Source of the DNA: Pristionchus mayeri
Lineage: Eukaryota; Nematoda; Chromadorea; Rhabditida; Neodiplogasteridae
Reading direction: 5' to 3'
Length of the DNA: 64,000 nt
Assembly: GCA_036245805.1 (NCBI GenBank)
Contig: BTRK01000001.1
Location: forward strand, 27,225,087-27,289,086
The translations under genes and the position numbers were made by a program. Shown piece after piece: positions 1,566-63,995 of this stretch (the first letter of the stretch is position 1; every line of letters begins with the position of its first letter). The notes below the pieces were generated by a model. It made no database searches. It worked only from the letters and a program-made list of their open reading frames with translations, and was not told the origin of the DNA.

Positions 1566-4500
1566 TTGGAGCACTCATCGTATCCACTGGCTGATTCGTT
1601 TTCAGATAAGTCAAATAGTCCCGTAAATATTTCATAAATGTTTCGACAAGTTCATGACTCTGAAAGATAAAGCGATATTGCGGTGAAATCTGACATAGCA
1701 TAAATCAAACGATCAACAAAAGCTGGATTTTTCGATAAACTTCGATAAACAACAGGTTGGTTTTTATGTGCAAAAAACATTTGGCTAACTGGGAAACGTC
1801 AAGTACACCCCTACCTCTCCCGCTGCAATTGGATCGGTACTCATAGTGCTTTCCATTGCGGTAATCTGCGGAGACGTGGTTTCTAGTTTCTGGGAAAAAT
1901 GGATAAGCCATAATAGCTCACTATCAATATCACATGCTATGCAATTTTTAATTTTTAAACTTGATAAAGGTATTCGAATTTACTCACGGATCTACTCATG
2001 GAGTCGAATGGATTCTCCCCGTGTTTCTTTCTCAGTTCACCCAGTTCCGTAAACGAAGAATCGCATTCTCGTCTAATTTTTACGTCATCCTGTGAAATAA
2101 AGTGTGATAAACATGGCAGTTCTATAACACAAAATATTTACGGTAACATTGAAGCAAGTCCTGCCAGTTATATTTTATTGACCTTGAAGCATCCCTTCGA
2201 GTACCAGGCATCCATCGCTTCCCGAGTACAAGGACCGTATTCTTTTCCGTTCGGGTCAAGGTAGAAGAATTTCAAGGGCTTCGAAGAAGTAGGCTTCAAA
2301 ATTCAAATAAGTTTTCAAAGAAAGAAATGAAAGAAAGTTAGAGAGTTTTCAAAGAAAGTTTTCAAAGAAATGTTTGCCCAAAAATCTTTCATGATGTTAT
2401 AAAACTCACTTGATCAAAAAATGCACCCAGATCCATCTTGAAAGGTATATCTGCATCTGCAATGAATTAAAGTAGCTTGAATGGTTTTGCCGGGGTGTTT
2501 TTTCAAGATAATGGTACTACGCTACTATTGCAAGCCAGCTTGAACTGTTGCAAAGGTTCGTGATGCAACGGGATACACGAAACTTTTTGAGCCTTATAGA
2601 GCAAAACCCGGTTTGATTTTGACCTGACAGATAGTTGAATTCACAGACATACATCCTGAGTTATCTTACTAACTCCTTTAAAAATATATCACCATTCACT
2701 GCTTTTCCATCGGGGAAAGAAGAATCACACTTGTGAAGTAACATTTCTTCCTGTGAATGAATAGTTAATCCTATTTAGCAATGTATATGACAATTACCCA
2801 AAAAATTCTTAAAAATTAATCGATTTTAAATCTTACTCACTTTCAAATATCCCATTGATTGCAACGCTTTCACAGCATTCCATTCAAGAGTTCTCTTGAT
2901 TCCTTCCGGATCAATGTACGAGATTGTTGACGTTTCTACCGGATAACTCTGAAAAAAATAGTATTTCCTATCCGTGTTGGTTGTGGAATTGCTAAATCAT
3001 TTAAAATTTATTTTTAGTTCATAATCATTAATATAGAATCTGTTGTTCTTCGTGTATAGTCCCTACAATTCCTAATATTGCTACGAAAATATTATAAACA
3101 CAACTCACTTTATTCAAAATTAAAGTTAGCTCGGTCTTCCCATATAACTCTATGAATTTAGTTAATTCTTCTGAAAATTTAGTTTTATCATTTTAGCAAA
3201 AATATAGAAGTACAAAATTCACCATTCATTGCTGCTGCATGCTCTTGATTCAAAGGATCGGAGCTGCTTTCACTGCCTGAGGGAATCTGCTGCAAAACGT
3301 GAAAATTAATAATTGATTTTAGCGATGCTGTCAAGTTCCCTTCGTGCTTCACTTCTCTTACTATAATCTCATAACCACAACAAACCTCCTCATATTCGCA
3401 TGGCAAGGATGTTTCTTTCTCGGATTCTTCTTCCGATGCATTCTGGAAAAATCGATAAATCAATAAGAATTTTAGATTGAAACCCATAACATCTTCTGAT
3501 TTTTCATCTAACGGATTCGGTTGGCTGACCTCGTCAAGCTGTTTCTCTCCTGCGGGAATAGTCTCTTCGCCTATGATCGATTCATCATCAGCGTGCCCAG
3601 CTTTGAATCGCTGATGAGTAATATTTTGTTTTGTAATCTCATATTTCTTTGCAAATCCTGGCAAATCGATCTACTCACAGTCATCTCCCCATCAATGTAC
3701 TCATTGATATCACGCTGCATGTGCTCAAGAGAAGTCTGAAAATATAGAAATACGTGTTGTTCTTAGAGATCGCAAATGTAGATTTTCGATCTCGATGCTC
3801 ACAATCATTACCACATACACTCACCATTTTCAGCTCGTCAAATTCCTTCTGCACTTGTTGGAGAGCTCTCTCAGTGATTTTTACCTGATTCACCATCGTT
3901 TCCGAAATCTGCCAAATAAATGTTTTTCGTAAGCTCTTCGATTATGCTAATTACCTTATTGACTGACTTGATGCTGTCGAGAATACGCATTTGCGATGAT
4001 TTTAATGTAGATATTGCCCCTGAAAACGGCTCTTTATCAGCGTTGGAGAACAGAATTTCGAATGAATAATCATTGCGTCGATGGCAACTATGTGAATGCT
4101 AAGAATCAAAATGTTGCTCTCTCAATTTTGCACTTTCTTGTCGTTCAACTATTCAATAGTAAGCTAAATTCAGTTGCCAGTTGCCTTCTGACCTTGAATA
4201 AAGAGATCCTCACCATTCACAGAATCGTCCGTTTCCTTCTGCTGTTCAATCAAATTTTCCAACTTTTGATTGTTTCGATCGCATTTGATTTTTACAGTCG
4301 ATATTTCCTGAGGAAACGTGTATTCAGTAAAGAAATAATGTTATCGCTAAAGGATAAAATTGTTTTCCCTAGAACGAATTTGAAATAATTCTGATATTCA
4401 TACGAGATTTTACCTTCTTGATTGAAGCCAAACTTTCTTCTTGCTTGGCCACTTTCTTTTCGATTTCCACAATTTTATTTTGCTGCGGATTATCTTTCCC

Positions 4501-5591
4501 ATTAGAAAGTGCATCCACCAGCTTCTTTTGGAGGCGATCGACAATGGACGTCTAGGCAACATTCAAATTCTTTGTGGCTTTGCTTTCAGAAGTGTTTTAG
4601 GTCCTGATCAGTATGGTGCAAAATTTACAAAGTATTATTTTCGCTATAAACTTGCAAATGCACAGTTTCATGTTCTCACCTCAAATAAGGGTGCAATCTG
4701 ATTTTGGATAAGATCTGTAATTTCCTCCCTTTTCCAATTCCATGGCTCATTGAACGATGTGGTCAGTGATTCGACTTTCTTCAACAAAGAATTACAATTC
4801 CCTACACTTCAAAAAGGTTAGACATACTTGCTTAAGTAATTGAACATCCTGTTCAAGTTGCTTGCATCGGTTCACATTCTCTTTCGAGAAATGAAAAGGA
4901 AGGTTGTGGTCATTTGGATCGATCAATTCGTCTGTAATTTTTTTAAATGACATTCCAAAAACGCTCTAAGGGACGATAAACCCAAACTGCCCATCCTAGA
5001 ACCACTGAGTCTTCAACACCATGGCTCGGTGCACAATGCTTACCCAAATTCCGCAGCTGTTCCTTGTCCCATTGTTCACGAACCGAGATCTGAGAGTGAC
5101 CACATGTTACACCATGTATACTGTCAACTGACGAGACTAGACTTTTTGTCACTTCCTACCAGCTGGGAACTCTGAGCAAAGAAAGAGAAAGGAAGAGTGA
5201 TCGATGTAACACAACCGGCAAGGGAACAGGAAGAATCTCTAGATACCCATGACGTAATAGTTGCAAATAATTAGAGGAAAAAAACACGATGGAATTCACC
5301 CGGAATATCACTTCCGAGGTTAGGCTTTCACTTGCGCCAACGGTGAATTCAGTGACTGGCCCACTGAAAAGATCAATATTTACCTGGTGTATTTTGAAAA
5401 AATAGCTACAATTTACAGCTAAATATTTTCAACCCGTGCAATTTTCGCCACCTTTCACAAACAGCAGAAGCTAGCTTAACGATTGCATAGAATTACGTTA
5501 ATTAGATCAACTAAAAATAGTTGCAACTAAAATCTCATCAAAATACTCACTAGGCTTTGTCATCTATGCCGATATAGAAGCTCTTAGACAT
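1566..5591 (-). CDS. Gene A: GYF-domain coiled-coil protein (3' end not resolved)
   Basis: Spliced minus-strand gene; first exon 5591-5551 starts MSKSFYIGIDDK, with a TTTCAG acceptor upstream (likely spliced-leader site). The next exons complete a degenerate N-terminal GYF-like domain (YGPVTEF; the usual W..GYF is missing). Coiled-coil exons follow near 4931-4852, 4790-4690 (contains NEPWNW), 4530-4420, 4303-4215, 4020-3960, 3910-3830 and 3735-3680, then acidic linkers at 3660-3225. A second GYF-like unit is at 2940-2660 (ISYIDPEGIKR, lacking GPF). A third, canonical one is at about 2276-2000 (FYLDPNGKEYGP, then FTELGELRKKHGENPF). A distal exon at 1659-1566 (ELVETFMKYLRDYL) matches the RLF-type exon of genes B, C and F. 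I could not trace zinc-finger exons; the 3' end may be lost or lie before 1566. Exon edges are hand-called. Confidence 0.7.
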
Positions 5592-6488: not shown

Positions 6489-9400
6489 CTACGCCGTCCA
6501 TTCATTATTCCAGTAGTTGCTGCCCTTCCAGATCTTGATGAACAGGGTGAATGAGGATGAATCCTGGAAATATTTTATTCGTTTTCTGGTGATTATCCTA
6601 ATAAAAGTCCACCATGGCTTCTTCCAAATATTATTTTTTTCACTCGAAAGGCGGGTGAGCAAGACAGATTTTAATGGATGGACGCTGTTATCCACTGTTA
6701 CTCACCAGCAGTCCATGGTTGTATGAAGTCATGTGCTGGAAGTAGTCATCGGCGCTCTCGAAGATCGCCCTGCACGATCCACACGCGGGAATCTGAAATA
6801 ATATATTACCACCTCTCTATTTCCCAGAAAAAAAATTTAATGGAGGAAAACCATGATAAATACAGGCTCTCATTAGGTTTGATTCACACACTTCATTAAG
6901 AAAAAGCTGCCTAACACTTCAAGTGATACTGCAAAGCCTACCTTTCCTCTGAATAGTTTATCAAATTCTGCTGTGGCCTTTTTCACGTTCTTCTTGCACT
7001 CGAGGAAGGCGCGAATATTCGCAGCCAGTTCCTTGTTGTACTCGGCAGTTTTCGGCTCGTTCACCATTTGCACTGGGCGACCATTAGCTGGGAAATTATA
7101 TTTAAAAACTTTTTATATCTAATTTTTAAATTAGTATACATATGTATCATTTCTCATTCAAAGTATCGCAATGTTTCTTCCATTTGGTTCACAAATTTCT
7201 TCAAAAAACTACCTTTTCTGTGGTTATCGAAGTTGCGCTTGAAAGCGGGCATTTTAGCCATGATATCGCTCGCGAATTTGATCATAAAGTCAATGTCAGG
7301 ACGATAGAGGGATAGAGGGAGACGATAGAGGGATTAAATATATGGAAATATTATTTTTTATTTTCTTTCTCTAATATTGGTGTTCTATATTGATCTGACC
7401 TTGAAATTCTCGACATGCGAATCGTCAATGAGGTGGAACAACAGATGGCGGGGATTCGTAATCGTGAAATCGCAAGCACTACAGTAGATCGTCTGAAGAT
7501 TATAGTATCAGCTCATATTGTAATTATCATATTGGCACGTTGATTCAATTCTGTGCTGAATGAATTCGCTAACATCACCTTCCTAAAAAATTTTATCTAC
7601 AGGCCAGTAACTCGTCGTTTTTCTCAACATATTACCGCACCTCACGAGCCAGTCGGCGAATCTCTTCCATCAACGAGATCGACATGCACTTGTAGTGAAG
7701 CGATTCTCGATCAGAGCAAGAAAGAAGGAATCTGTCCATTTCCTCTGAAATCACACCATGTTTCTTCTTTATCCTTAGCCAATTCCGTTATCATTTAAAT
7801 ATTACCAAAATCGAATCCAGCCCTGTTCGACTTCAGTTCGCCAAAATCGCCCGAATCAAGAGCGGCGCAGTAAATACGCAGAAGATCAACGAATTTGCGC
7901 ATGAAGAGACCAGACTGCTCTGCCTAAAACTTCCAAATTTGAATTTTTTTTAAATTTATAGTGTTGTCTTGGACAGTTAAAGGAGGAGTAAATGCAAACG
8001 CGCGCCCGGTTGGAATATGTTTCACCTAGGGACGCACTCTCTTCAAGTCGCGTGCTATCTCGCCCCTTCCCTGAGCTTTCCTTGATCTGGCTCCCAGCCA
8101 ACTAGCTATAACTCTGTTAGGAATGGAGATATCAATGTGAAATTTCGGAGCTTCTTATCGTTGTGGCAGGCGAGCATTCTACCACTGATTCTCTATTCTC
8201 TATTCTCTATTCTAGCGCTCGTGATGGGCGGTCGTCCCTGACCCCGCTCTTTTCCGACCTAGTTTGGGGAATCCTCTCCCGTCAGCTTGGGCAACCCGGA
8301 GAGTATCGCCTACTTGGTACACTTCAAGAGGAGGAGCACGGACGGATTCCCATCGTCTCGAGTGATCTACCGTCAAGAAAGCCTCGCTCAAGTCTGCGTT
8401 GTGAGTTCCTAACCGGCGCAAGTCAGGTGTTCGGCGGCAGGATGATCTACTTCGATGCTCAACGGAGATCCGTCACGATCGTCCCTACAGTTGACCAGAG
8501 AAGCCAAAGAAGATCCCATCCATTGACCTAACGACGCTCTGATACCGAAGATCCCAATTCCATCCACACCGAAGTCACCCTCCTGCAGGACCATTGTGCC
8601 TGACGTCAGGATAAATATGAAATATTATCGTTGTGGAGCTCTAGGCAGTGCATATCATAGCTTCAAAAATTGAATTTTGAGTTTACTCCTCCTTTAATGG
8701 CTCACAATTGTAATAGCTGGCTTCGCTTGCTCAACGGAAATCTCCTTTTCTTCTTCCTCCTCCTCTTCTTCACTATCAGAAAACTCACGACAGATCGCAT
8801 CCCAATTTTTGAGCTGAGAAACCTGCTTCTGAAATGGAATTCATAACTTTTAAATTATCTTCAACATTGAAGTTTTACTCACCTGTTTTACTTCAGGTGC
8901 TGACTTATCTTTCTTGGCAACGATAGCTACAGTGTTCGTATCATTCTGAATAAAATGTTCATTACATGAGAAAATTGTAAAAATATTATCGAAAAAAAAA
9001 TAATTTGTTGAGAGCGCTATGAAGTGTACCTTGTGTTCGACCGCTTTGGGTTCGATGTGTTCAGTTCCAACGGAGGGTTGAGCAGCGCTATCTGCAGGCT
9101 TCTGAAGCAAATCAATTATCAAAACAATTTTAAAATCATTCAATTTATTCATTTCAAAAAGGATTTGTCAAAACTTCTGAAACGATGTTGGAATGCTTAA
9201 ATGTTGTTTCGCTCAGCGAAAGAAAAATTAATGAATGTTCAGAGAATCAGAGGTCATGAACAATTTGCAAAGCTAAGCAACTGCTTAGCATGGACAGTCA
9301 TTTAATAGGCACTCACGGATATATTCATGGAGTAGTCGAAGGGATTCTCCCCATGCTTCTTTCTCAGTTCACCCAGTTCAATGAAAGACGAATCACATTC

Positions 9401-12400
9401 TCGTCGAATTTTGATTTCATTCTGTAAATTTCAGCCAGATTTTAGTTTCGAGAAAAGAACTCCCTGCCAGATTTCGTAAGTACTGACTGTGAAAGATCCC
9501 CTCAAATTCCAGGTTTCCATTGATTCCTGAGTGTAAGGTCCGTATTCGATTCCATTCGGGTCAAGGTAGAAGAAGTTCACCGGCTTCGAAGAAGTAGCCT
9601 TCAAGTTGTAAATACATTTTCAGAGAATACACGCCCAAAAGATCTTCCTTGACGGATATATATTTCAAGATTTCCAAAATTTTTGAATTTTTCTTCGTTT
9701 CAAAACTATTTTATGTCGAAATAAATTAGGTAAAGACCGATATTTTCGGAAATTTACTGTATACGACAGAGCAGGAGCAGCATTTGTCTTCTGATCGTTG
9801 TTTCCACTACCAGATGGAGTCTGCTGAAAGAAATATAGTTCAAGTACTAGCAATGTTTTCCAGATTCATCCATGATTCAAATCGTTTCTCTTATCTCACT
9901 ACTACAACATATCTCCTCATATTCGCAAGACAAGGATGCTTTTTCTAGGACGTTGAGCTTGTACGATATACATGGTAGGATTTTCGGTTGTTACCAATGA
10001 AGTTTAAAGAGTTTTAATGATGAATCCATTTGGTTTGCGATAACTTACATTTTTCATCTTTTCCATTTCCTTCTTCACATCATGCAGATCATTCACAATC
10101 GACTGTAGTTGGCGCGAAGTCGATTCGGCATTCTATAAATAAGATTATGATTAAATGCTCAAAGTAAGAAAATAATAATTTTACAAACCTGTTCGCAAGT
10201 TGTGATACTGTCTCGAATGGTCTTCTCTGACGATCTCAATTCGTCCAGTTGCTTCGCACTACCTGAAAAAATAAAATGGTAATTTCCTTTAGAAAATTAG
10301 ATCATGAATGGAAATTATATTACCATTCACAGAATCCTCCGTTTTCGTTTGTTTCTCCATTAGCTTCTCCAACTTGGAATCATTTCGATCGCATTTTGAA
10401 TTGATTGCAGATATCTCCTGAACAAATTTTCACTCCATTTGGTAAACTAGATGTGGAATACCCATAATTTATTGGATCTATTCGTCCTCATCTATATTTC
10501 ACCCTTGGTTTCACACCTTTTTCATAGACGCCAAGCATTTCTCTTGCTCGTCCACCTTCTTCTTTATCTCTGTCATCTTCTTTTCAAGTTGAGAATTCTC
10601 CGGAGATGGTTCCTTCTTGGTCGACAGCCCGTTCAGCTTCTTGAGAAGATCAGTATGCGACTACAATTTAAAATATTTTTTCCCATAATATTTTAATAGT
10701 TAAAACTGTGCCGTGAATATTTGTGAAACTAAATTGTGAATTGCTGACCTCCACTAGTGACTCTATCTGGCTCTTGAGAGCAGCAATCATTTCCTGATAA
10801 TCTGACTTCTGATTATTGTGCTTCTCATTGCAGGATGTTCGCAGCGATTCGAATTCCTTTTAATAATTGGTGATTTTTTATTATTATGCATATTGATTAA
10901 CACAATTGTATTGGGGTGTCCGGAAAGTTCGTATAATGCTTCGGAAAAAGTCAGTTCGCGATCAAATGCAGTGATTGCGCAATCTGTTTGTCAACAATGT
11001 ATTGCATCATTCTGACGTTGAGTAGTGAGAGGATTTAATCAGTCTCCTAGATGCTACATTGATTCTTGTGATGGACTCCCATCTCTACCTCCGAGCAGTT
11101 TTACTTCATTACTACCGTCTTGGCCGATCCGTGAAGGAGGCCCACTCTGCCCTGGCCCAGTCGGAAGGAGCTGACGCCCCCTCCATACCCTTCTGCTATA
11201 AGTGGATCTCCCGCTTCAAGAAAGGTGAGTTTGGTCTCGATGATCAACCCCGCTCTGGACGCCCTCCCTCCCTCGATCAGCCTTTCGTTCTCCGCATACT
11301 GAAGCGCAAGCCCATGGCCAGTGTGCGTGAGTTGAAGAAGGATACTGGTACTCCCAGATCAACGGTGTCCGATATCCTCCATCGATCTGGGAAGAAGCCG
11401 AAACTCCCACAAGTGATTCCCCATGACCTCTCCCCCGAACAGCTGAAAAATCGTGTTCAAGTCTGTCGGGAATTACTCCATCGCAGATCCAATCTTCGAT
11501 GGGTCAATTCCATCATCGCTACAGATGAGAAGTGGATCACGTACGATAACCCTGTGAGGAGACTGCAATGGGTGGATGCAGATGAGAAGCCCACGCCCGT
11601 CCCGAAGAAGGAAGAGCACGGAAAGAAGGAACTCCTCTGCTTCTAATTCTCAGTGCTCGGTCCCATCTACTGGGAGATCCTCGCCCCTGGCACCAGCATC
11701 AATGCCGACCTCTTCTCTGAACAACTGGAAGATGTCGCGATCAGAGTCCCTCCCAGACTCCTGAATCAGGGCAAAATTCTTCTTCTGATGGACAATGCTC
11801 GCCCACATCGAGCGAAGATGACCCAGAAGAAAATGGACGAGCTGAAGATCGAGAGGATTCCCCATCCACCGTATTCCCCGGATCTCTCCCCATGCGACTA
11901 CCACTGCTTCCGCTCTCTCTCTGACTTCCGCAAAGGAAAGAAGTTCAAGAATCGAGATGAAGTTGTGAGGGCTTTCGTGAACTGGGCGGTCTCGAAGAAA
12001 CCCGCATTCTGGAAGAGAGGAATCGAGACCCTGCCCAATCGCTGGAGGGAGGTAGTGAGAAAGAAGGGGGCATACATTGGTCACTGAGAATTGTAAAGCA
12101 TTGAATAAAAAATAAAAACAAAAAATTATACGAACTTTCCGGACACCCCAATACATAGTTTAACGGAGCGTACCCCCTTCAACTGATTCAATGATTCCTC
12201 CAATTTCTTCTCTCGATCGACCTTATCTTGTGAATTCGGAATGGATGAATGTAGCCATTCAGTACAATCAATTCGTCTGCAAATAGTGTGAATCAGAATA
12301 TCCATGCAAGGCTCTGTAAACAGCTCTAAAACTATTTTCTCAAGTTTTGGGATTTTTTAAAAATGCAACGCGAAATGCTTACCCATGCTGAACATTTGCT

Positions 12401-12753
12401 CGTTGACGTTGAAATGATCACTGTCAGAGATCTGAAAGTTTACACTTTTTAAACTGGATGTTCCTATTTTTTATACGCTCAAAGTTTTAGCTCTATATGC
12501 CGCAGTATACGAAGTGAAAAGAAATATATTTTCAAATTCTTACTTGAAATTGCACTTCAGCGGAGAAATATCCACGAGCGTACCATCTCTGGGCATCGAT
12601 TTGGGAAACAGGTCCACTGAAATGAAACCATGCTTTAGTTTATCAGAAGGATAAAAAATTCTGCTGATGTTGCCGCTACATTAATCTTATCAATAAAGCA
12701 AAATTTGCTCACTAGACGTTGTCGTCCTCTCCGATATAGAAGAGCTTCGACAT
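6489..12753 (-). CDS. Gene B: double-GYF, coiled-coil, two U1-type zinc fingers; possibly frameshifted
   Basis: Starts MSKLFYIGEDDNV at 12753. Exon 2 (about 12618-12548) gives YGPVSQIDAQRWYARGYF, a clear GYF core. Coil exons are near 10860-10750, 10660-10525, 10420-10325, 10265-10190 and 10133-10050. A canonical internal GYF (FYLDPNGIEYGPYT, then FIELGELRKKHGENPF) is split over 9600-9500 and 9425-9317. Then come acidic exons (8828-8715, LKNWDAICREFSDSEEEE), an RLF-type exon (7925-7815), zinc finger 1 (7497-7400, CSACDF..HLIDDSH), EPKTAEY exon (7066-6943), zinc finger 2 (6788-6705, CGSCRAIFES..H) and last exon DSSSFTLFIKIWKG..YW ending at 6489. Both fingers are C-x2-C-x12-H-x5-H. Odd: exon 4 (12293-12180) changes frame between the HPF and VDREKK parts, so the gene may be inactive or the base call wrong. 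A mariner and a TTAA element lie in introns. Confidence 0.75.
7981..8693. mobile_element. TTAA-flanked element (piggyBac-like, non-autonomous)
   Basis: The inverted ends AGGAGGAGTAAA (7981) and TTTACTCCTCCT (ending 8693) are immediately flanked by TTAA on both sides (7977-7980 and 8694-8697). Exact TTAA target duplication is the hallmark of piggyBac-type insertion. At 713 bp it is too short for a piggyBac transposase, and the 122-codon plus-strand ORF at 8163 shows no transposase motif. It lies in an intron of gene B, just after an exon whose donor is GTGAGC, so it need not disrupt the protein. Confidence 0.7.
10911..12151 (+). mobile_element. Mariner transposon, copy 1
   Basis: Inverted ends begin TTGGGGTGTCCGGAAAGTTC at 10911 and end in the complement at 12151. 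TA lies on both sides (10909-10910 and 12152-12153), so both ends are intact. The 1241 bp element sits in a gene B intron, opposite to that gene, at the place where coil exons 4 and 5 would join. It carries a transposase broken by one nonsense codon. Copy 2 at 43046-44285 is nearly identical, so both insertions look recent. Confidence 0.95.
11071..12087 (+). pseudogene. Mariner transposase with one in-frame stop
   Basis: The frame runs from MDSHLYLRAV at 11071 to GAYIGH at 12087, 338 codons plus stop. A TAA at 11644-11646 replaces a TTC present in the intact copy at 43108-44124 (within LLCFFFS). The N-terminal paired-type helix-turn-helix region and the catalytic blocks ATDEKW, MDNARPH and YSPDLSPCDYH are otherwise present, with 34 residues between the second and third Asp (a D,D34D mariner). 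The first Asp is before the stop and the other two after it, so no functional enzyme is expected without readthrough. The upstream TTGATTCTTGTG is less likely to be the start than the ATG at 11071. Confidence 0.93.
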
Positions 12754-28000: not shown

Positions 28001-28232
28001 TCTGATGTGGTTTCAGCTACTTTCACCTCTCGTTATGAATGTGTGTGTGATATAGTTGAATCGTATTTGAAGGTGAAAATACAAACCGAATTTTGTACAA
28101 TTTTTGTTTTCGTATTGTTCATGCTGACTGCGAAACCGGTGTAGTATCCGAATTGTAGTTGAATGTTAATAAAGTTCGCCAACAACAAATACATCAATTT
28201 CTTCGAAAATAATCTATTTAGTTTCTGAGAAG
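25010..28232. repeat. Left arm of the 7.5 kb near-perfect inverted repeat
   Basis: Every base x from 25010 to 28232 pairs with base 57519-x in the right arm with no net indel that I could see. I noted only three substitutions by eye (25955, 27913 and 27937). The arm contains the 5' part of the ELM2-like gene and a fold-back element. The inner edge falls at 28232, inside a short coiled-coil exon that begins at about 28230. Confidence 0.95.
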
Positions 28233-29286: not shown

Positions 29287-29579
29287 CTTCTCAGAAACTA
29301 AATAGATTATTTTCGAAGAAATTGATGTATTTGTTGTTGGCGAACTTTATTAACATTCAACTACAATTCGGATACTACACCGGTTTCGCAGTCAGCATGA
29401 ACAATACGAAAACAAAAATTGTACAAAATTCGGTTTGTATTTTCACCTTCAAATACGATTCAACTATATCACACACACATTCATAACGAGAGGTGAAAGT
29501 AGCTGAAACCACATCAGATTTAGAGAACAATAATTAAGCAGCACCATGAGAGCACCGCTCTATTTGTACAAATATCGAC

Positions 29580-49693: not shown

Positions 49694-49839
49694 ATCAGAA
49701 TCGCAGAATCGGATTTGGCCTAAACAAATTTGAATCGACATAATCTGAACGCCACGAAAATCACTAAGGAGTAGGGTTTGCCATAGTACAATAATACCAT
49801 GATTTACGATCATAAACAATCGCGAAATTATTGCTACGG

Positions 49840-52044: not shown

Positions 52045-55000
52045 CTACACTTGATAGACATCGATATAATCGTCCGTCTTCATTCCCAGACACTTAGGCG
52101 TGTCTTCATCATTGATATGCCGTCCCATGTAGAGGAATCGAAGGGAAGAAGGAGGGACTCCGACTCTCTCCGCATATTCTCTCTTGATCTTCCCACAGCT
52201 GCACTTTCCTTGTCTCACTCGGAAGTGAAACTCGTGTAAGTCCTCTCCGACGATTCTCAGAATGATGAACACATCATCCCGATCGCAAGTGCTAGTAGAA
52301 GCCTCAATTATATCGCCCATTAATAGCTCAACCCTAATCATTCCGAATCGATGACAACTGAGTGGAACTCCAACTGAACGTGGAAACATTTTGTCATCAA
52401 AGATTATTCATGGAAAATCAATTCAAATATGTTACTACGGTAACAGCTAGTCCTACTGCTAAATTTTTTTAAAGTAAAGACACCTGTTGAGACGCGTTGA
52501 GATAGTCCTGCTTTCTCTGCTGCGATGCCTTCATGTCGGCGATTCTCTGTTGGAACCCTTTAATGGTCTGTGCTCATGATTTTTTTAAAAATTTTATGCG
52601 ATGAACCCGCTTTGTTATTGTTTCACACCCTTTTAAAAGCTTGTTTCGATAGGATGGTCATTCGATGCGAGGTAGCGGATTTGCTGTCCGTCCACATCAT
52701 CGAATGGCCATCCCTAGTGAGAACCCACCTTTCTCTACGGCAATCTGCTTCTCCAACAGTTCTTGAGTAATATGGCTGATCGCAAGCTTCTTCTTCATTA
52801 GCATGGTTGCAACTTTGAGGCAGCACACCCATTCCAAATCAGAAGGTACCTGGAAATTCAGGCCATATATCACACTCCCCTATCATTACCCACCCCCTAA
52901 TCGCAGAGGGGTTGTGCAACCGAAAAGAGGGGGGGGGGGGTCTAGGCAAAATGTGATCAAACAATCCGAGAAGTGTCCATATATCTTACCCAAATAAGCT
53001 GCGTTCGACAATCACTTATTTTGCTTCTAGTTTCCCCCTACACTCGACTATCCCGCTCATTTATCACCCCTCTCACCTAAGAATCGAACTGAAATGCCCA
53101 TTTCTCGGATTAGGCCAAATACTGGTATCTGATATTTTTTGAGGAATGAGTAGGTCCATCTCAATCAGAGAGATCCTGAGAAACGCATTTGCCGATGATC
53201 ATGCTGAAGGTCCTGGTATGGGGTCGTTGGTTCTGGTACCCGCCTTTAACCTTGATTATCTACCTGCACTTTAAGCGAAAATCTTCCTCAGAAGAACCCC
53301 CACTATCTTGTTGAGTTCTATCGATGTATGCAAACTAGATCTCATGAAAATTACTATCAACAGTGCTATGTTCAAGTAGACTTTTCGAAAAAATCTATGG
53401 TGAAGACGCAAACGAAACTCATGGTGTGCAAAACTTACGAAGAGAGCTTTAAAATGAGTGGTTTGCGGTTCCTATACCGTCGATGCTAGGTTAGTTATGA
53501 AGGTTTGAAGCTCGGAGTTGATTTGAAGTCCTTTCATTCGAGTCAGGCCGCGCGCTTTCCGTAACGAGGCGAGAAATGAGATGAAGTTCGTAAATCAGGT
53601 TCATTTGTAAGTGTGTTTCAGTGATGATTTAACAATACCATCATTAGTAAATTTAAAATGGTCACTGAAACACATTTAAAAATGAACCTGATTCACAAAT
53701 TCCCTCCCATTTCTCGCCTCGTTAAGGGAAGAGCGCGGTCTGGCTCGAATGAAATGACTTCAAATCAACTCGGAGCTTCAAACCTTCATAACTCACCTAG
53801 CATCGACGGTATATGAACCACAAACCACTCATTTTATAGCTCTCTTCCTAAGCTTTGCACACTATGAGTTTCGTTTGCGTCTTCACCATAGATTGTTCGA
53901 AAACTGTACTTGAACATAGCACTGTTGAAAGTAATTTTGAGATCTAGTATGCATACATCAATGGAGCTCAAAAAGTTAGTGGGGGTCCATCTGAGGAAGA
54001 TTTTCGCTTAAACTGCAGGAGAACTGAGATAATCAAGGTTAAAGGTGGGTACCAGAACCAACGACCCCGTACCAGGACCTTCAGCATGATCGTAAGCAAA
54101 AGGAGAAGTTGGTAGTGTGTTTAGGGATGTCATAGAAGTTCAAAACTGAAGAAAATTCAATTTGGCTAATTTCGCCTAATCCGGCGTTCAGCTGCATTCT
54201 CATTTGAGAGGCGTGTAATGCGTGTTTTTTCGGTGGTAAGACATTTCGAACAAAACATTTCGAACTAGGACGTTTCACACAATTTTCGTGAATTTTCGTG
54301 AGCGCGCACACCACTTTGGACGCTAGTTTTCGCATTATGTAAATGATTTTAATGTAATTTATTTATCAATTACGTTTTTGACAGTGCCTAAAAATATATT
54401 AACGAGAACAAAAACCCTATGAATTAAATTTTAGGCGAAAATTGTGCAAAACGTCCTAGTTCGGAATGTCATTATTCAATTTTGTTTGTTCGAGATGTCT
54501 TATCACCTGTTTTTTCTTCAGTTTAATAGAAAACATTAAGATACCACCCATCGGAGGCAAAATAAATATATTGTGCTACGTACTCACTCCCTTCAATGTA
54601 TCAATTTTCAAACAAGCTGTCTCGACAAAAAAACTTCATACTACGTTGCAAGAAACGTTGGCTGATCAACCCGCTTAATTTCTATGGATATTTTAGATAA
54701 AGTAACTACACCTTTATCATTCTTTTTTCCTAATAAATAATCTAGCAACCATACATAAGCTTCTCTCATCAAGGTTCCACACTTGTGTGTAGTAAATGAA
54801 TATATACAATCGCAGTTTTCCCCGATCAATAATCTACCTACCTTCATCACTCTCTTCTCCTCTTCGTCCACTTTCTTCGTAAGTTCTTTCACATTTTTCT
54901 CCTGGTCGACGGTCGAGTCTTCCTTCCGATTCAGTTCATCCATACGACGAACGAGATCGGATTGAGACTTAAAAGATGATCTCAGCTTGAAATATATCAA

Positions 55001-55196
55001 TCCAATTAACATCCTCATTCTCAATTAGACTTGAACACTTAATAATAGTCGAGTCAATTACATATTTTAGGTGTGCAAAGTCGTTCCCTTTACTAAAAAT
55101 CAACAAGAATACCTTATCGTCATTCGATGGCGAGTCATCCTTTTCTTCCTTCACTCCTTCATCCTTCTTCACTTTCTCCCCAACAACAGCAGACAT
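52045..55196 (-). CDS. S2: coiled coil with C-terminal SUMO-like domain
   Basis: Starts MSAVVGEKVKKDEGVKEEKD at 55196, with TTTCAG six bases upstream (probable spliced-leader acceptor). Exon 1 ends DDSPSNDDK: the PW motif has lost its tryptophan. Coil exon about 54966-54842 (SQSDLVRRMDELNRKED, VDEEEKRVMK). A 0.9 kb fold-back element lies in the following intron. Next exons: 52850-52731 (DLEWVCCLKVATMLMKKK), 52570-52484 (FQQRIADMKASQQRKQDY) and the SUMO-like exon from about 52335 to 52045 (VFIILRIVGEDLHEFHFRVR, SLRFLYMGRHINDEDTPK, TDDYIDVYQV then stop). The C terminus stops before any diglycine. Frames are open throughout. Function unknown; a built-in SUMO fold could serve as a decoy or docking surface. 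Confidence 0.82.
52651..52718. repeat. MITE-GAGG, copy 3 (shortened)
   Basis: GATGGTCATTCGATGCGAGG and CATCGAATGGCCATCCCTAG flank a reduced centre. It lies in S2 in the same intron position as the S3 and S1 copies. Confidence 0.8.
53197..54091. mobile_element. Long fold-back element, 0.9 kb
   Basis: Left arm from GATCATGCTGAAGGTCCTGG; right arm ends with its near complement. Further paired blocks include GGTTCTGGTACCCGCC, CCTTGATTATC and ACACCATGAGTTTCGTTTGC-type sequence. The centre is near 53640. It lies in the S2 intron between the coil and WVCC exons. No transposase motif. Confidence 0.82.
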
Positions 55197-55202
55197 CGTA
55201 TT

Positions 55203-56086: not shown

Positions 56087-57955
56087 CTACACTTGATAGA
56101 CATCGATATAATCGTCCGTCTTCATTCCCAGACACTTAGGCGTGTCATCATCATTGACATCCCGTCCAATGTAGAGGAATCGAAGGGAAGAAAGAGGGAC
56201 TCCAACTCTCTCCGCATATTCTCTCTTGATCTTCCCACAGCTGCACTTTCCTTGTCTCACTCGGAAGTGAAACTCACGTAAGTCCTCTCCAACGATTTTC
56301 AGAATGATGAACACATCATCCCCATCGTCAGTGCTAGTAGAAGCCTCAACGATTACTCCCATTAATAGCTCAACCCTAATCATTCCTAAACGATGGCACC
56401 TAAGTAGAACTCGAAGTCCGTGGAAACATTTTTTAATGATTGATTATCCTCGGAAGACCTATTCAAAATGATTTACCAGGGTTGCGGGTAGTTTTACTAC
56501 TAAATTTAAACACTTTTTGACAGCGAGGAAACATTATACAAAAACACTGGAGAAGTGTACATTTTTTGGTTCTCATCAAGTGGATTCTCATCCGGCATAC
56601 TCCGGTTTTTCAACGCAGGATGCGCGCCACTTTTGCGAAGCGGCGCCGCCACGCACTTTTCGTTTGCACACTCTTTCTCTCTGAATATCCAAGACGAGAG
56701 AGTATGTAATATGAGGAGTGCGTGGACTCGCCGCAAGTGGCGCGCATCATGCGTTGAAAACCCCGACAAGTGCCCGACCACACCTTTTGAGACATTCTGA
56801 GATTGTTTTGAATCTGCTGGGCGGCCTTCTGGTCAGACATCTTCTTCGCGAATTCTTTAATAGTGTGAATTCATTAAATATATTTTTAAGTCCTCATGAG
56901 ATGAACCGGCTTTGTTGTTGCTTCAACACACTCAAAACCTAAGGACTGGGGATGGGCATTAGATGCAAGGAAGCCCGAACGCCTCTCCCTTTCGAAAAGC
57001 GAAATCGGGCGAGGGAGAGGCGTAGCGGAATCGCTAAATCGCATCGAATGGTCATCCCTCGCATACATGGGCAGGGAATGCTGCCGAGTTTCAAAATCCG
57101 GGAGGGTTCCCCCTTATTCAGCTGCAAAACCGACAGGGTTTGCATAAACTGGCATCCTAAAATTGCCAATTGTATAATGGGACTATCCAAAAACCGGGAG
57201 TGTCTTGCGTCGGGAGTGTTGCAGCAATGGTGCCCACGTTCGTTTGAAGGACCCACCTTTTTCGACTTCCATCCGCTTGAGAAACAGTTGCTCTTTCAGT
57301 TCACCAATCTTAACGTGCTTCTTCAGAAGCATAATTTTAACCTTGGGGCAGCACACCCAGTCGATGTCCCAAAGTTCCTGGAAGAAGGGATTTCAAGCAT
57401 GCGGTCTCCTCAAAAAAAATTTCAAAATACATTACAATAAACTTTGGCTGGCCAACCCGCTAAATTTGTAAGCATATTTTAAATATAATCACTTCACCAT
57501 AATCTAGCAACCATACTCTTCTTTCATCTAGGTACCATACAAGGGCAAATAAAGGTATACTACCGCGATTTTCTCCGATCAATAATCTACCGTACCTTCT
57601 GCGCTTCCTTCCACTGTTCGTCCACTTTCTTCGCCAGTTCCTTCACATTTTTCTCTCGAAGGACTATCGAGTCATCCTTCCGATTCAGTTCATCCATACG
57701 ACGAACGAGATCGGATTGAGACTCAATAGACGATCTCACATCAGCTTTAAAAATACCAGCACAACTGACATCCTCATTCTCAATTAGACTTGAACACTTA
57801 ATAATAGACGAATCTATATCCATATTTTAGGTGTGCAAAGTCGTACCCTTTACCAAAATCCACAAGAATACCTTATCGTCATTCCATGGCGAGTTATCCT
57901 TATCTTCCTTCACTCCTTCATCCTTCTTCACTTTCTCCCCAACAACAGCAGACAT
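56087..57955 (-). CDS. S1: PW motif, coiled coil, C-terminal SUMO-like domain
   Basis: Starts MSAVVGEKVKKDEGVKEDKD at 57955; exon 1 ends DNSPWNDDK at 57873, keeping the PW motif. Coil exon about 57720-57598 (SQSDLVRRMDELNRKDD, VKELAKKVDEQWKEAQK). Exon about 57385-57262 (IDWVCCPKVKIMLLKKH). A short exon near 56860-56793 (IKEFAKKMSDQKAAQQ). The SUMO-like exon ends at 56087 (VFIILKIVGEDLREFHFRVR, SLRFLYIGRDVNDDDTPK, TDDYIDVYQV then stop), again without diglycine. A hairpin (56591-56775) and a MITE (56948-57059) occupy introns. It is the most compact of the four SUMO-like genes. The CSCGKIKREYAERVG segment is shared with S2 and S4 and is not typical of ordinary SUMO. Confidence 0.84.
56591..56775. 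repeat. Hairpin element in S1 intron
   Basis: The left arm holds TTTTTCAACGCAGGATGCGC and GCCACTT; the right arm holds their near complement (AAGTGGCGCGCATCATGCGT then TGAAAAC). It lies between the last coil exon and the SUMO-like exon of S1. Confidence 0.72.
56948..57059. repeat. MITE-GAGG, copy 4
   Basis: GGGATGGGCATTAGATGCAA at the left and GCATCGAATGGTCATCCCTC at the right, with GAGGCGTAGCGGAATCGC inside. It lies in S1 in the same intron position as the S2 and S3 copies. Confidence 0.8.
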
Positions 57956-57961
57956 CGTGTT

Positions 57962-59383: not shown

Positions 59384-59790
59384 TATTTCGATTCTGTCAG
59401 ATAGTGTGTTATATGACAGCCTCTTATCTTCAAAGCACGTTGAATCACAGAAATCAAAGAAGGTGGGGGGTGCAAGTGAGGTATTGTGCGGTGCATTACG
59501 TTACCGTAAACACATCCATTCTGCGATGGGATTATCATAAGCTAGCAATGGATTCTCAGAAGGTCCTTTATTATCACAGAGAAACAGTCATGATATTCAG
59601 AAAATGCATGTAAACTTCTAGCGTGTCTAGCTAACCGGAATGGCGGACAATTACCAGAATATTCTACCCTTCCAAATAAAACAACAATAATGACAACAAA
59701 TAAATGGAACAAGGAAACATAACGAGATCTACACTTCCTAGTAAGTCCCAAATGATCTCCCTAATACGTCTAATTCTATCCCGATTCCTC

Positions 59791-62700
59791 TCACAGCATT
59801 GCATCCCCGTAGTCGCGACCCTTGCAGAGGACGACATCCCTCGCGTACAGAGACTTATCCTCAAACACTCACTTCAGTTTAGTCTGAGTCATCTAGATAT
59901 CTCTCCTACTGATACTCCACGTCGACAATCTACGGAGGACGGGAACTAGAGAGCCTCTCTCTTGAAAGGGATTGGAGTGCTACTCACTAGAGTTGGCAAT
60001 ACGAGGGGCGGTGAGCGCGTTACGCCTCCCCTTCCTCGGATTGCGAAATAACAGGGGGGATAAGGAGCTCGTAACCTACTCTCGTATTGCCAACCCTAAT
60101 ACTCACCACTCCCACGTGGTTGTACGTCGTCATGTGCTGGTAGTACTCGTCGATGCTCTCGAAGATCGCCGCGCACGGAGAACAGAAAGGAATCTGCAGA
60201 GGCGCGCACTTTGTGGGAATCTCGAGCAGATCATAGAGTGCATTGATCTACTCTAATAGATTCGGAAATCGAACGAGGGTGCAAGAAACTGAGGCACAAT
60301 GAGCGAGAATCCCAATATACAGCTTCTTCTTGTTTCGGTCCCTCGTGAGCCGTAATCCCCATGTTTCATGAAATCGTCAGTTGCATGCTGGCCGGCACTA
60401 GGCCGGATGAGAACTATGACGTCATGCCGCCTTTGATATATCATGACGTCGGCATGACGTCATAGTTCTTATCAGACCAAGTGCCATGCTGACCCCCTCT
60501 TCGAGATGCGTCCGTAGCTCCTTCTCCAGTCGCTGCTTGTTCGCCTCCACCCAACGACGCGCATCCGAACTCATCTCCTTATTAGTCATCGAGAAGGGGC
60601 CAGCGGGGAATTCTGAATGAATCGAATGACAAACATACACTTCCACAAACAATTCATCTTCCACTGTAGATGCAAATTGTTTAGCCTTGAGATAAAGTCC
60701 AGCAGGTGATAAAGTCAGTGATGCTATAAAGAGGACTGGCAAATAGTAAACACGTAGACTCGCAATGGATCCTCACAGACTAGATCATAGACCGTTTTTT
60801 TTATTCTCAGTCAATAAATATCTCCTCTTTTCATCTATTACACTTACGTTTGGAGAGGTGATTCCCAACTTCCAGCAGATTCTTGCCCGAGTAGGAATTC
60901 ATGAACTGGGCGGTGGGGCGGAGCTTGAGCACGGGGTACCGCCCACTCGTCGCCCTTTCTCTGCCCTTCTCCAGATGCTCCAGCTCGACCCTCATCAATC
61001 TACAATGCTGCGCTCAGGGAAAGGCTACACTTCAGAAGGACTGTGCCACACGATCCTTTCGTCAGAAACCAGTATGAAATGAGGTGAGAGTAGGGCGCCC
61101 CGTTAGTCGATAAGTATTCTTGATGCACAATCATGTCTTTATTCCAGACACCGAAAGAGAAATGGGGAAGATTAAACGACTGCTCTAGACCGTGGCCTCG
61201 TTAGCCGCTCTCTTACAGTTTTCAGATGCCTTCTTATTCTTAAAAAAAATGTTCTTCAAAGGAAAACGTGCTCGGCAAATTGAACGAGAATGAAACAGAG
61301 AGAAAGTGGTTGAACTGCTCACTCATTGATCGTAGCCTGAGGCGAGATGAACCTATAGAAGACGCTGGAGACTAGATCCGTCATCTTGGTGTACACGCCA
61401 CCCCACCGCTCCGATACCTGCGCATACAACGTCGCCATTTTAGGGATTCCGATCAATGTGCGAAAAAAACTTGGTATGATCAATTTGGAGTCGAAGATTT
61501 GTTATCCCGAATATCTTCACATTGAATTGCACTAGTTAGTTTGAAACATACATACATTCCTACAATAAAGGAATAGCAAGACGAGTGTGCATCTGTGTTT
61601 TAGCTATGCTAAGAAGTACAGTATCCGTAGGCACTTACCACATTAGCGTTCTGTCCGTGGACCGCATCCACGAAGTGGTGCAGCAGATGGCGGGGCGTCG
61701 TGATGTTGTAGTTGCACGTGTGGCATTGAATATTCTAGACAAATCATGGTGAGGAAGAAACCGGTAGTTCACATTTCCATTAGAGGAAACTTAGTCATGC
61801 TTATGTGACAAGAAATATCCATGTAAAAATAAATGAGATACTAACCACAGCGAGTCGCCGAATCTCTTCCTTCAGCGCATCACAAACTCGGCCGTACGCA
61901 GGAATCGTCTGATTGAACGTCGCGGTGAACGACAACATCTCATCTGCAAAAGAACTTTCAAAATGATGGTTGCATATTTATTCATACACGTAGCACTCTA
62001 TGGATATGTGACTGCTCAGAGTGCGAAATAGGGAAAGGAGAGAGCTCTATTAAGCGAAATACAATTGCGAAAAAATTGAGAAATCGGAGGCGATCGAACC
62101 TAGCCTCTCATATTTTTAAAAATCACTAACCGATGTTGAAATTGTGGCGCTTTAGTGATTCAAAGTCGGCAGTGTCGATCGCATTGCAGTACACTCTGAG
62201 AAGAGCGACGAAATCGCTCACGAAACGCTCCGCTCCTCGAGCCTGCGCAATCGAGAATCAAATGCTCCCTCTCACATGGGAATGGTCAGAAGTCACATAT
62301 TCCGATCTGTTCCGTATTTCGCGATTAGAATTTAACCACTTTGAGTATCTCAAAACCGGTTTCAAAAGTCCCAAAATGTTCCTGGTAGTTGACTTATGAA
62401 CGCTCATGACTTCGAGAAAAATCCCCACGAACAGATCGGGATGAGTTCTGACCAGGTCCATGTCGCTGAGCTCGGCGCAGATCGCATTCCAGTCCTTGAC
62501 ACGCGAGGCCTGCGCGAATTCAGATGATAAAGAGGAGATAAGAAACACGAGTGGCACTACGCCGGATGAGAACTACGCCATGCCGCCTTTGATGTATCAA
62601 AGGCGGCATCACGTCATAGTTCTCATCCGACCTAGTGCCAACAAGAGTATGATTAGTAAAAGAAGAGAAAATTATGAGAAACATAGAACCGACTGGTTTG

Positions 62701-63995
62701 GCCGATGCAGCCTCCTTCACGTTCTTGGGAGGAGCCACTTCCGTCTTTCCTCCCATCTGTAAATAACCTCCGCGTTACAAGGTAGACGAACAACCATTTT
62801 CGGATATGAATGATTGTCAATAAAGTGAACTCAAAAATCTCATTATCTCCTAGTAACTTCATCAGTTCAGTGTTACGAACACAAATTTGCATATTCCCTG
62901 GGCAAATCATATCTGCGTCACGTGTCGTTTGGTTACGAACGCGCTCAACGTGTTATGAAAAAAAAGCTTGCGAAAATTAAAATTTAAAGAAAACAAAAAC
63001 ATTGAAAATAAAAATATTGCCTTCTCGATCGGTAGTCCACTCACTGCCTTCTGTGCTTCCACCGCGTCTGTAACGACGGAACTCATTTATACGTAAACAA
63101 GTCGAAATGTAAGTTCGAATGACATCAACAATAACAACAATATCGTAAATAAGTTAGTAAACAAGTCCTAGTGAGTTTTCAAGTACCCCTATCGTCCTTC
63201 TTGCTCCTTCCATTCATCTGATTCCATGGCTCGGCATCGTCGTTAGTCTCCGTCATGAATGGCTGAGTCTGCAAAATGATTTTTTAAAATATAAATCATG
63301 TATTTTGGATTTATAAAGTTTAAAAATGACCTCATCGCCCTCCCATGGGGAGCGTTCCTTTTCAACTCCTGCATTAGCCTGCGAAGATTTCGATTTACAT
63401 TGAGCAACAGACTTCTGCGATGCCCTTACTGATATGAAAGGAATGCGATTTGTGAGGTTAGAGCTTATTGAAATTCAAAACAGGGAGAGAAAGTCACCTC
63501 AATATCATCCCACGGCGCTTCTCCCTTCTTCTTCTTTCCAATCATCTTCTCAGGCTTCCTCACAACACAATCGCCTTTGGCCTAAACTGATGTGTTGATA
63601 TACCGTACAGTTCTACCTAATTAATAAAACAAATTTCATTCAAATTCAACTAAACTTCATATAAAATCGAAAACAGAACCTGATCATCATCCCATGGAGA
63701 CTTATCCTCACTCTCTTCAATCTTCTCATTCGACTTTCTTACACCAGAATCGATTTTGGCCTAAACAAATTTATACCACCTTCTCAATGATTTGCGCTGG
63801 TATATCAATACTAGGCATACAATATAATAGTGAAGGCACTAGGTCGGATGAGAACTATGACGTCATACCGCCTTTGACATATATCATATGACGTGACAGT
63901 TCTCATCCGATATGGTGCCTGCGTACCAGATTCTCCCATGGCGAGTGGTTCTCCTTCTCATCTTCTTCCTCCTTCACTTCCACTACAGTTGACAT
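59791..63995 (-). CDS. Gene F: serial PW-motif exons and two U1-type zinc fingers, no GYF domain
   Basis: Starts MSTVVEVKEEEDEKENHSPW at 63995. Five small exons each carry one PW motif: 63995-63927 SPWENL, 63760-63680 SPWDDD, 63581-63498 APWDDI, 63414-63331 SPWEGD, and about 63269-63190 EPWNQ. Then 63075-63050, 62757-62695 (MGGKTEVAPPKN), 62520-62462 (VKDWNAICAELSD), about 62245-62132 (ERFVSDFVALLRVYC), and an exon near 61945-61850 ending EEIRRLAV. Zinc finger 1 is 61735-61640 (CHTCNYNITT..H). Exons 61430-61325, 61000-60855 and about 60612-60490 follow. Zinc finger 2 is 60198-60110 (CSPCAAIFES..H). The last exon, 59859-59791 (EDKSLYARDVVLCKGRDYGD), matches the C termini of genes B, C and D. 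All exon joins I checked are in frame. The window ends five bases before the ATG, so the promoter is not visible. Confidence 0.8.
59988..60100. repeat. MITE-TTGGCAATACG, copy 2
   Basis: Ends AGTTGGCAATACGAGGGGCG and CTCTCGTATTGCCAACCCT form a palindrome like that at 40076. It lies in the last intron of gene F. Confidence 0.85.
60394..60485. repeat. MITE-CRE, copy 2
   Basis: GGCACTAGGCCGGATGAGAA at the left and CATAGTTCTTATCAGACC, AAGTGCC at the right, with ATGACGTCATG and a second GACGTC inside. It abuts the 3' side of the gene F exon at about 60612-60490. Confidence 0.85.
62553..62639. repeat. MITE-CRE, copy 3
   Basis: GGCACTACGCCGGATGAGAA and TTCTCATCCGACCTAGTGCC with the centre TTTGATGTATCAAAGGCGGC. 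Here the two CRE cores are mutated to ACGCCATG and CACGTCAT. It lies in a gene F intron. Confidence 0.85.
63835..63919. repeat. MITE-CRE, copy 4
   Basis: GGCACTAGGTCGGATGAGAA and TTCTCATCCGATATGGTGCC with ATGACGTCAT on the left arm and a damaged ATGACGTGAC on the right. It lies in intron 1 of gene F. Confidence 0.85.

Follow-up and report, generated by a model that had tools for sequence, protein, structure and literature searches.

Members of a tandem GYF-coil gene family of Pristionchus mayeri probably end in a retrocopied SUMO that cannot be conjugated

How can genes of a single tandem array share their coil exons and end in two different ways, with paired zinc fingers or with a SUMO-like fold? 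This question is raised by a stretch of 64,000 nucleotides of Pristionchus mayeri (the window), which on its minus strand carries a tandem array of nine related genes, A, B, C, D, S4, S3, S2, S1 and E (Table 1), in agreement with a first-pass annotation that had listed nine genes with common modules. Gene E of this analysis is gene F of that annotation, in which it was described as lacking a GYF start. However, GYF and coil exons of gene E were found 3.3-5.5 kb past the right edge of the window (window coordinates about 69548-67297), and therefore its GYF-less, PW-first appearance was due to the window edge. The second GYF exon of gene E was skipped by the gene finder and was found by tblastn. 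The gene models were built with splice and codon scoring trained on the window's paralogous exons, using hand-set splice weights, and the runs differ on several exon ends.

As read from the sequence, the standard protein of the family has the predicted order GYF domain, coil exons, acidic Pro-Trp (PW) motifs, NWDAIC block and two C2H2-like fingers. A near-complete standard gene was found flanking the window on both sides and in P. fissidentatus. The PW exons of the standard gene are located downstream of the coil (P0001, genes Z and E), and only the S genes carry a PW exon in front, so the earlier view of PW exons as a front of the family was not upheld. The proposed sharing of PW exons by S and GYF genes was likewise not confirmed: the exons concerned are very short, and in tblastn the S1 exon matched gene E with an E value of 0.014. 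For the fingers, the C-x2-C...H-x5-H spacing can be read in the sequence and is conserved, but all Pfam finger scores were below the curated cut-offs (best zf-C2H2_2, 24.4 versus 26.9 bits). Searches for tRNAs and in Rfam gave no matches. Two of the protein-collection searches scored only the 7,993 and 7,994 candidates with most words in common.

The family is fast-changing in Pristionchus. Genes A and B contain a second GYF domain, a change beyond those noted before, which scored 52.8 and 64.9 bits, respectively, and thus above the curated Pfam cut-off of 25.7; the nearest relatives of this pair are GYF exons elsewhere in the genome. Below this cut-off were the GYF parts of gene C (16.3 bits, E 0.0078), P0004 (21.2 bits, E 0.00024) and P0005 (22.6 bits, E 8.5e-5), which are mutually homologous, and P0001 had no Pfam match at all in this search. 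Weak PDB matches were obtained to the GYF proteins At5g08430 (0.0055) and GIGYF1 (0.0062), and also to GIGYF2 and SMY2. The GYF domain is common to these proteins and the family, whereas here Pro-Trp motifs and two fingers are present in the same protein, and the S genes are devoid of a GYF domain.

Table 1. Features of the array in window coordinates.
Feature	Position	Strand	Remark
Gene A N-terminal GYF domain, degraded	4828..5591	-	
Gene A second, canonical GYF, two exons	1988..2293	-	Pfam
Gene B N-terminal GYF domain; last exon's frame doubtful	12174..12753	-	
Gene B second, canonical GYF, two exons	9317..9598	-	Pfam
Gene B coil-1, -2, -3a, -3b exons	10189..10856	-	
Gene B finger 1, middle part, finger 2, C terminus	6489..7492	-	
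Gene C N-terminal GYF domain over four exons	16901..17592	-	Pfam, below cut-off
Gene C coil-1, -2, -3a, -3b exons	16196..16833	-	
Gene C finger 1, middle part, finger 2, C terminus	13514..14733	-	
Gene D N-terminal GYF exons	33292..33878	-	
Gene D coil-1, -2, -3a exons	32522..33180	-	
Gene D finger 1 (24513-24424), finger 2 (19782-19705), C terminus	19530..24513	-	
Gene E PW exons, KDWNAICAELSD block, finger 1 (61734-61639), finger 2 (60193-60107)	59791..64000	-	
S1 acidic SPW first exon	57872..57961	-	
S2 acidic first exon, SPS for SPW	55113..55202	-	
S3 acidic first exon, SPR for SPW	49595..49741	-	
S4 acidic SPW first exon	44345..44437	-	mariner-like insert between exon and coil-2
S3 coil-1 exon	48415..48519	-	
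S1 coil-2, homologous part; exon start differs between own models and P0003	57596..57721	-	
S2 coil-2 exon	54842..54967	-	
S3 coil-2 exon	48138..48266	-	
S4 coil-2, homologous part; exon start uncertain	42830..42955	-	
S1 'WVCC' exon	57257..57377	-	
S2 'WVCC' exon	52729..52849	-	
S3 'WVCC' exon	47546..47666	-	
S4 'WVCC' helical exon, S-specific	42199..42328	-	
S1 exon before SUMO, probable coil-3b	56784..56854	-	reached by 171/5,000 shuffles
S2 coil-3b exon before SUMO, missed by gene finder	52484..52558	-	13.0 bits, 0/5,000 shuffles
S3 exon before SUMO, possible coil-3b	47261..47325	-	alone not significant, 1,089/5,000 shuffles
S4 exon before SUMO, probable coil-3b	42034..42104	-	reached by 94/5,000 shuffles
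S1 SUMO-derived terminal exon	56087..56344	-	
S2 SUMO-derived terminal exon	52045..52302	-	
S3 SUMO-derived terminal exon; no own upstream start codon	45404..45661	-	in-frame TGA at 45676
S4 SUMO-derived terminal exon, stop before di-glycine	41629..41886	-	

Five S genes were found, S1-S4 in the window and S5 on another contig (C3). All keep family coil exons and end in SUMO. Coil-2 is present in all five and is nearest to that of gene E, coil-1 is present in S3, and coil-3b is clear in S2 and S5. An acidic PW-type exon occupies the GYF position, and between the S exons no GYF or finger match was detected. The S genes are thus read as apparent copies of a coil gene minus both original ends, plus a SUMO copy. 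Two further assignments were considered and rejected. The 'WVCC' exon has a phase that would fit a diverged coil-3a, but it scored -4.5 to 3.9 bits, which was reached by 49-4,076 of 5,000 shuffles; and for the S3 'NPFE' exon, a derivation from a former GYF end (4.9 bits with a two-sequence profile, 6/5,000 shuffles) is suggestive only.

The relationship of the S genes to the GYF genes was quantified with a profile of five GYF-gene coil exons. The coil-2 exons of the four window S genes scored 29.1, 28.8 (S2), 22.2 and 19.2 bits (S3, the lowest), in contrast to 4.4 bits for the best of 72 other coil windows (two P. fissidentatus relatives). For each copy, none of 2,500 plain and none of 2,500 heptad-preserving shuffles reached its own score, the top single shuffle having 19.7 bits (of S2). 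The best of 177,635 PDB sequences, scored with an equivalent coil profile, had 16.9 bits, which is near the S3 score. The S3 coil-1 exon alone had 9.1 bits, reached by 5 of 5,000 shuffles, and both S3 coil exons jointly had 39.8 bits versus a shuffle maximum of 16.8. S5 coil-3b, which precedes SUMO, had 21.3 bits (0/5,000 shuffles). A search of the 290.8-Mb genome with the S2 coil revealed seven places at E <= 0.1 (nine candidates, all scored), namely S1-S4, S5, gene E and, only with E = 0.09, gene D; the coils of Z, A, B and C were not recovered in this search. Because it yielded only S copies and GYF-gene coils, the coil link is real, and the first-pass proposals that the S coils match those of the GYF genes and that S3 keeps a second matching exon were both borne out. 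The coil-exon borders are identical and in phase 0 in S2, S3, C, D and E. In the coil tree one split sets S1-S5 and gene E apart from the other genes (93/92, not strong); no branch relied on meets the 95/80 mark.

The SUMO-like back end that had been proposed was verified. Its fold is that of SUMO, with a match to PDB entry 5xqm (1.4e-19), which is the nematode SMO-1, and S4 matched PDB SUMO chains down to 1.5e-22. Rad60-SLD was the top Pfam family, above the cut-off in all four window copies. In tblastn, these share 51-55 percent identity with the intact SUMO of P. mayeri. The loop that follows HFRV is one residue longer in the S copies than in SUMO, and in 5/5 a TAG replaces the glutamine codon before LGG, so that, with this common stop just before the di-glycine, no S SUMO would be conjugatable. 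In the parental SUMO gene (L040), VVG is followed by an intron; the S exons are continuous across this site in 5/5 cases, and all five can be aligned for 23-60 bases beyond the SUMO stop (3′-UTR homology). With the parental intron absent and 3′-UTR homology kept, the S SUMO exons look retrocopied. The end is thus an intron-free copy of the SUMO gene, and not an alternative ending within the family, as it had been understood. The more general earlier proposal of tandem duplication, exon shuffling and a change of the C terminus was supported by the coil homology, the 93/92 split, which is not strong, and the identity of the S3 model with the public model P0002. A spliced-leader relic was rejected as proof of retroposition: the leader-like trace is degenerate and only suggestive in S1-S3 (by eye 11/13 bases in S3, 10/13 in S1 and S2, with a 4-base gap) and absent in S4 and S5.

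Taken together, the S genes probably originated from a tandem duplicate of the family that contained the coil and received a retrocopied SUMO end. The ancestor would have been an E-like copy; the SUMO copy would stem from reverse transcription of a SUMO mRNA and would have turned into the last exon through splicing into it.

Several other explanations have to be weighed against this origin. It is very improbable that the coil likeness is generic and the S and GYF genes are unrelated neighbours. Coils commonly resemble each other, each exon is short and the S3 coil-2 score is just 2.3 bits over the best PDB sequence, but the shuffle and other-coil-window controls for coil-2 and the S3 coils, the genome-wide specificity of the S2 coil, the common phase-0 borders and the intermediate coil of gene E all argue against it. 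The SUMO end could also stem from an older intron-free copy that was duplicated at the DNA level, or its intron could have been lost, without direct retrocopying into the coil gene. This is rather unlikely: SUMO copies are present at 27 places in the genome, 5′-UTR homology to the SUMO mRNA is confined to S1 (11 bases) and S5 (5 bases), and a clear spliced leader is missing at the S loci, but the exact absence of the parental intron together with 3′-UTR homology in 5/5 copies speaks for retrocopying. So do two SUMO retrocopies of this genome that still carry leader bases, the intron-free L041, in which a full SL1 leader (22/22 bases) is joined to CTAATAATG, and L013 with 20/22 leader bases.

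With somewhat more weight, but still doubtful, the S genes might be by-products in decay: a SUMO retrocopy would have landed next to a broken coil duplicate, be transcribed as noise and have no role. The SUMO dN/dS values of 0.93 (S1-S2), 0.80 (S2-S4) and 0.65 (S1-S4) and those of four S coil exons (0.68-1.40) indicate that recent constraint is weak; S4 contains a mariner-like insert, and in the public model P0003 the 5′ exons of S1 are connected, through odd junctions, with the SUMO exon of S2. Against decay, the SUMO frames are open in 5/5 copies, an outcome found in 36 of 4,000 runs of a drift simulation that was limited to substitutions and used hand-entered branch lengths from dS, treated as independent. 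Furthermore, of the ten S pairs, the seven with dS > 0.3 had dN/dS values of 0.43-0.61, the SUMO indels stay in frame, and the complete S3 model is identical to P0002 across its 288 residues; the pipeline behind P0002 used RNA-seq ORFs or P. pacificus proteins (PMC7992802). A second modifier fusion, not noted before, was found in P. fissidentatus. In P0005, two ubiquitin domains (Pfam 2e-50) follow a GYF-coil part, which shares 73/146 residues with P0001 and groups with P. fissidentatus GYF genes in the coil tree (87/84 and 84/99). It is an event separate from the P. mayeri SUMO capture. P0005 is a partial public model and abundant ubiquitin transcripts could be mis-joined, so it might be a chimeric transcript model and no parallel event. 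This reading is doubtful, since its ubiquitins are divergent (about 54/74 identical, by eye, in the first alignment) and tail-less and thus not the abundant ubiquitin, and its coil runs into the apparent tail of a preceding ubiquitin repeat. Another ubiquitin sequence, located about 10 kb away from the SUMO exon of S5, was dismissed as a further case, as it is a fragment broken into two pieces and has no adjacent coil or GYF match.

The proposed origin of the S genes resembles that of primate TRIM5-cyclophilin A, a coiled-coil protein of which the C-terminal domain was replaced, repeatedly and independently, by a retrocopied small housekeeping protein. The scaffold and the cargo (SUMO, ubiquitin) are different, the cargo here is without a conjugation tail, and any restriction activity of the S proteins would be hypothetical. 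Compared with SUMO itself, the whole fold is kept, but the S copies are behind a coil and without the di-glycine. Rad60, Esc2 and NIP45 are proteins with SUMO-like domains, two in tandem. A C-terminal SUMO-like domain without conjugation and the top Pfam family, Rad60-SLD, are shared with them, whereas the S3 model, P0002 and P0003 have a single SUMO stretch, the nearest solved relatives are SUMO itself, and the coil exons are of GYF-family origin. Tail-less, concatenated SUMO-like genes that lost the di-glycine, with tandem duplication and fusion at one locus, are described for grasses (PMC6680281); there the SUMO-like domains are fused to each other, while the S SUMO is fused to a GYF-family coil.

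The coil might allow an S protein to self-associate or to pair with its GYF-coil-finger relatives, and it would then display an unconjugatable SUMO surface, as a permanent SUMO tag or as a competitor for SUMO-binding partners. Such a mechanism is suggested tentatively; in P. fissidentatus, the GYF-coil protein with the ubiquitin tail would play the same part with ubiquitin in cis. It is a speculative and unlikely extension that the GYF-coil scaffold family repeatedly captures conjugation-dead modifiers as decoys or tags against parasites or selfish elements that exploit SUMO or ubiquitin, in the manner of TRIM5-cyclophilin. At this locus, the making of a new protein out of a tandem duplicate and a copied modifier can be read in the sequence, with standard genes still adjacent and a separate parallel case in a sister species. 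Since the genus Pristionchus serves as a genetic model, it can be tested what a fused, unconjugatable SUMO does and which role is played by the GYF-coil-finger family, so far unstudied. Should the captures prove adaptive, this family would stand beside TRIM5-cyclophilin as a scaffold taking up housekeeping domains again and again.

The window covers positions 27225087-27289086 of contig C1 in the 290.8-Mb genome of P. mayeri, a free-living nematode. The gene plan was derived with a splice and codon search, which was trained on paralogous exons and extended to both sides of the window. On the minus strand, the standard gene starts with an N-terminal GYF domain spread over four exons, followed by coil-1, coil-2, coil-3a, coil-3b and, in some copies only, an extra coil. 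Acidic Pro-Trp exons, a KNWDAICREFSD block and a short helical part come next, and the gene ends with fingers 1 and 2, separated by a middle part, and a WKGxxYWN motif at the C terminus. In standard genes the Pro-Trp exons stand 3' of the coil and not at the front, as the first-pass annotation had placed them. The plan is fullest in gene E, in the right part of the window, and in gene Z to the left of the window; most of it is present in C and B, and it is degraded or interrupted in A and D. Gene E had been described (as gene F) as lacking a GYF start, but its GYF and coils were found 3.3-5.5 kb to the right of the window edge. The exon of C and D that ends in GW-YASGY-S, and its counterpart in B, had likewise been misread: it belongs to the N-terminal GYF domain as its second exon. 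A partial P. fissidentatus public model (P0001), whose start lies within the GYF domain, follows this order as far as finger 1. In Pfam, GYF scores were well above the cut-off only in B and A; they were below it in C, in P0004 (a GYF-family protein) and in the P. fissidentatus model P0005. P0001 had no Pfam match, and all finger scores were below the cut-off. In gene B, just a part of the last GYF exon matches the paralogs, and the frame of this exon may be broken.

Features of the locus and related places (window positions, unless a contig C1-C6 is named)
Feature	Position	Strand	Remark
Gene Z (L036, L037)	-3058 to -9266		left of window; nearly complete GYF-coil-PW-finger gene
Extra two-exon GYF, gene A	2293-1988	minus	
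Extra two-exon GYF, gene B	9598-9317	minus	
Last GYF exon, gene B	12313-12174		
Inverted repeat	25010-28232 and 29287-32509		3,223-base arms, 100 percent complementary; 1,054-base spacer
Mariner-like transposase pair (by reading)	10945-12123 and 43072-44250		98 percent identical, opposite orientation
Non-LTR-type reverse-transcriptase-like open frames (by reading)	36889-38873	plus	
SUMO retrocopy L041	C5:24.04 Mb		SL1-bearing, frame open; 22/22 leader bases
SUMO retrocopy L013	C1:11.63 Mb		SL1-bearing, frame open; 20/22 leader bases
SUMO-like exon clusters	C5:36.10-36.13 Mb, C4:39.73-39.83 Mb, C6:37.09-37.38 Mb		

Within the cluster, the extra two-exon GYF is present only in A and B; with GYF exon pairs elsewhere, at C2:19.0 Mb and C1:30.7 Mb, it shares 53-59 percent identity. 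This restriction indicates that A and B probably gained it from another gene. Several repeats were also noted in the locus. The inverted repeat sits between the coil and finger exons of gene D and is either a palindrome of very recent origin or an artefact of the assembly. One mariner-like copy lies inside an intron of gene B, the other between the first exon and the coil exon of S4.

The genes S1-S4 have the exon order acidic exon (SPW, SPS, SPR), coil-2, a 'WVCC' exon specific to the S genes, a short coil exon and the SUMO exon; S3 also contains coil-1. A fifth SUMO-ended copy, S5, was found on contig C3. The proposed coil link between the S genes and the GYF genes withstood comparison with coil windows of the same family, with heptad-preserving shuffles, with PDB sequences and with the whole genome. 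It was weakest for S3, with 19.2 bits versus 16.9 for the top PDB sequence. In the genome-wide coil search the gene D coil had E = 0.09, and none of the coils of Z, A, B and C reached 0.1. Coil-2 of gene E is intermediate, with 23-32 of 42-43 residues identical to the five S copies, which have 12-19 of 42-43 residues in common with the six other genes compared. One split in the coil tree (93/92) sets S1-S5 and E apart from the remaining genes. In S5 and S2 the exon preceding SUMO can clearly be assigned to coil-3b (0/5,000 shuffles), while this assignment is weak in S1 (171/5,000), S3 (1,089/5,000) and S4 (94/5,000).

The solved relatives found for the terminal exon of S4 are SUMO proteins. 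In the P. mayeri genome, 30 candidates were scored and at least 27 places proved SUMO-like; the di-glycine is kept in several of them (20 of the 27 were read) and is missing from others. In the parental SUMO gene (L040) an intron follows VVG, and CTAATAATG is immediately preceded by a splice acceptor. In the intron-free copy L041 a complete SL1 leader is fused to CTAATAATG, and when the genome was searched for exact matches to the leader placed six bases ahead of an ATG, this place alone came up. The S SUMO exons are unbroken over the parental intron site, and their alignment extends 23-60 bases beyond the SUMO stop; homology 5' of the SUMO start was limited to S1 (11 bases) and S5 (5 bases). 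In all five S copies TAG replaces the glutamine codon before LGG, and therefore the simplest account is that the tail was lost before the copies spread. In S3 no start codon precedes the SUMO fold, and the frame is closed by a stop only a few codons further 5', so that this SUMO part can be produced only through splicing.

Among the S pairs, dN/dS was 0.43-0.61 in the seven with dS > 0.3, 0.65 for S1-S4, 0.80 for S2-S4 and 0.93 for S1-S2. Comparison of the five S copies with intact SUMO gave 0.50-0.69, and the four window coil exons gave 0.68-1.40. In a drift simulation every frame was still open in 36 of 4,000 runs. Together, these results suggest that the SUMO fold is moderately constrained and the coil sequence only slightly. 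The S3 model is identical across all 288 residues to the P. mayeri protein PMAYCL1PPCAC_03227 at NCBI (P0002), and a second public model, P0003, is a mixture of S1 and S2 exons. According to PMC7992802, these public models stem from a pipeline in which RNA-seq ORFs or proteins of P. pacificus are mapped. In both models the start lies 5' of the first methionine, which would resemble transcript ORFs.

In the partial P. fissidentatus model P0005, the family GYF and coil are followed by two ubiquitin domains without di-glycine. Its GYF fell among the remaining copies from P. fissidentatus in the tree (87/84 and 84/99). Used as a query against P. mayeri, it retrieved three places up to E = 0.1, namely C, D and Z at the locus, with scores so weak that further copies could be missed. 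Taking these ubiquitins together with the SUMO of the S genes, fusion to a ubiquitin-fold modifier seems to have occurred twice with different partners.

The collection of papers searched yielded nothing on a GYF domain in Pristionchus, no report on SUMO-like domain gene fusion by retrocopying, and only unrelated matter on nematode SUMO with a GYF domain and on GYF with coiled-coil and zinc finger in Caenorhabditis. On spliced-leader retrocopies in nematodes, the matches dealt with other organisms. For SUMO in Pristionchus nothing apparently relevant was among the listed entries, and for nematode ubiquitin-fusion retrogenes no title among the matches listed was on the subject. The parts are already known; their combination and its repetition appear to be new. 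TRIM5-cyclophilin is a comparison system for captured-domain fusions. In the family described here the coil is the constant part and the ends vary. The simplest reading, albeit a rather doubtful one, is that a putative coil scaffold carries a partner-binding end into a complex, and in the S genes this end is a SUMO without the capacity for attachment.
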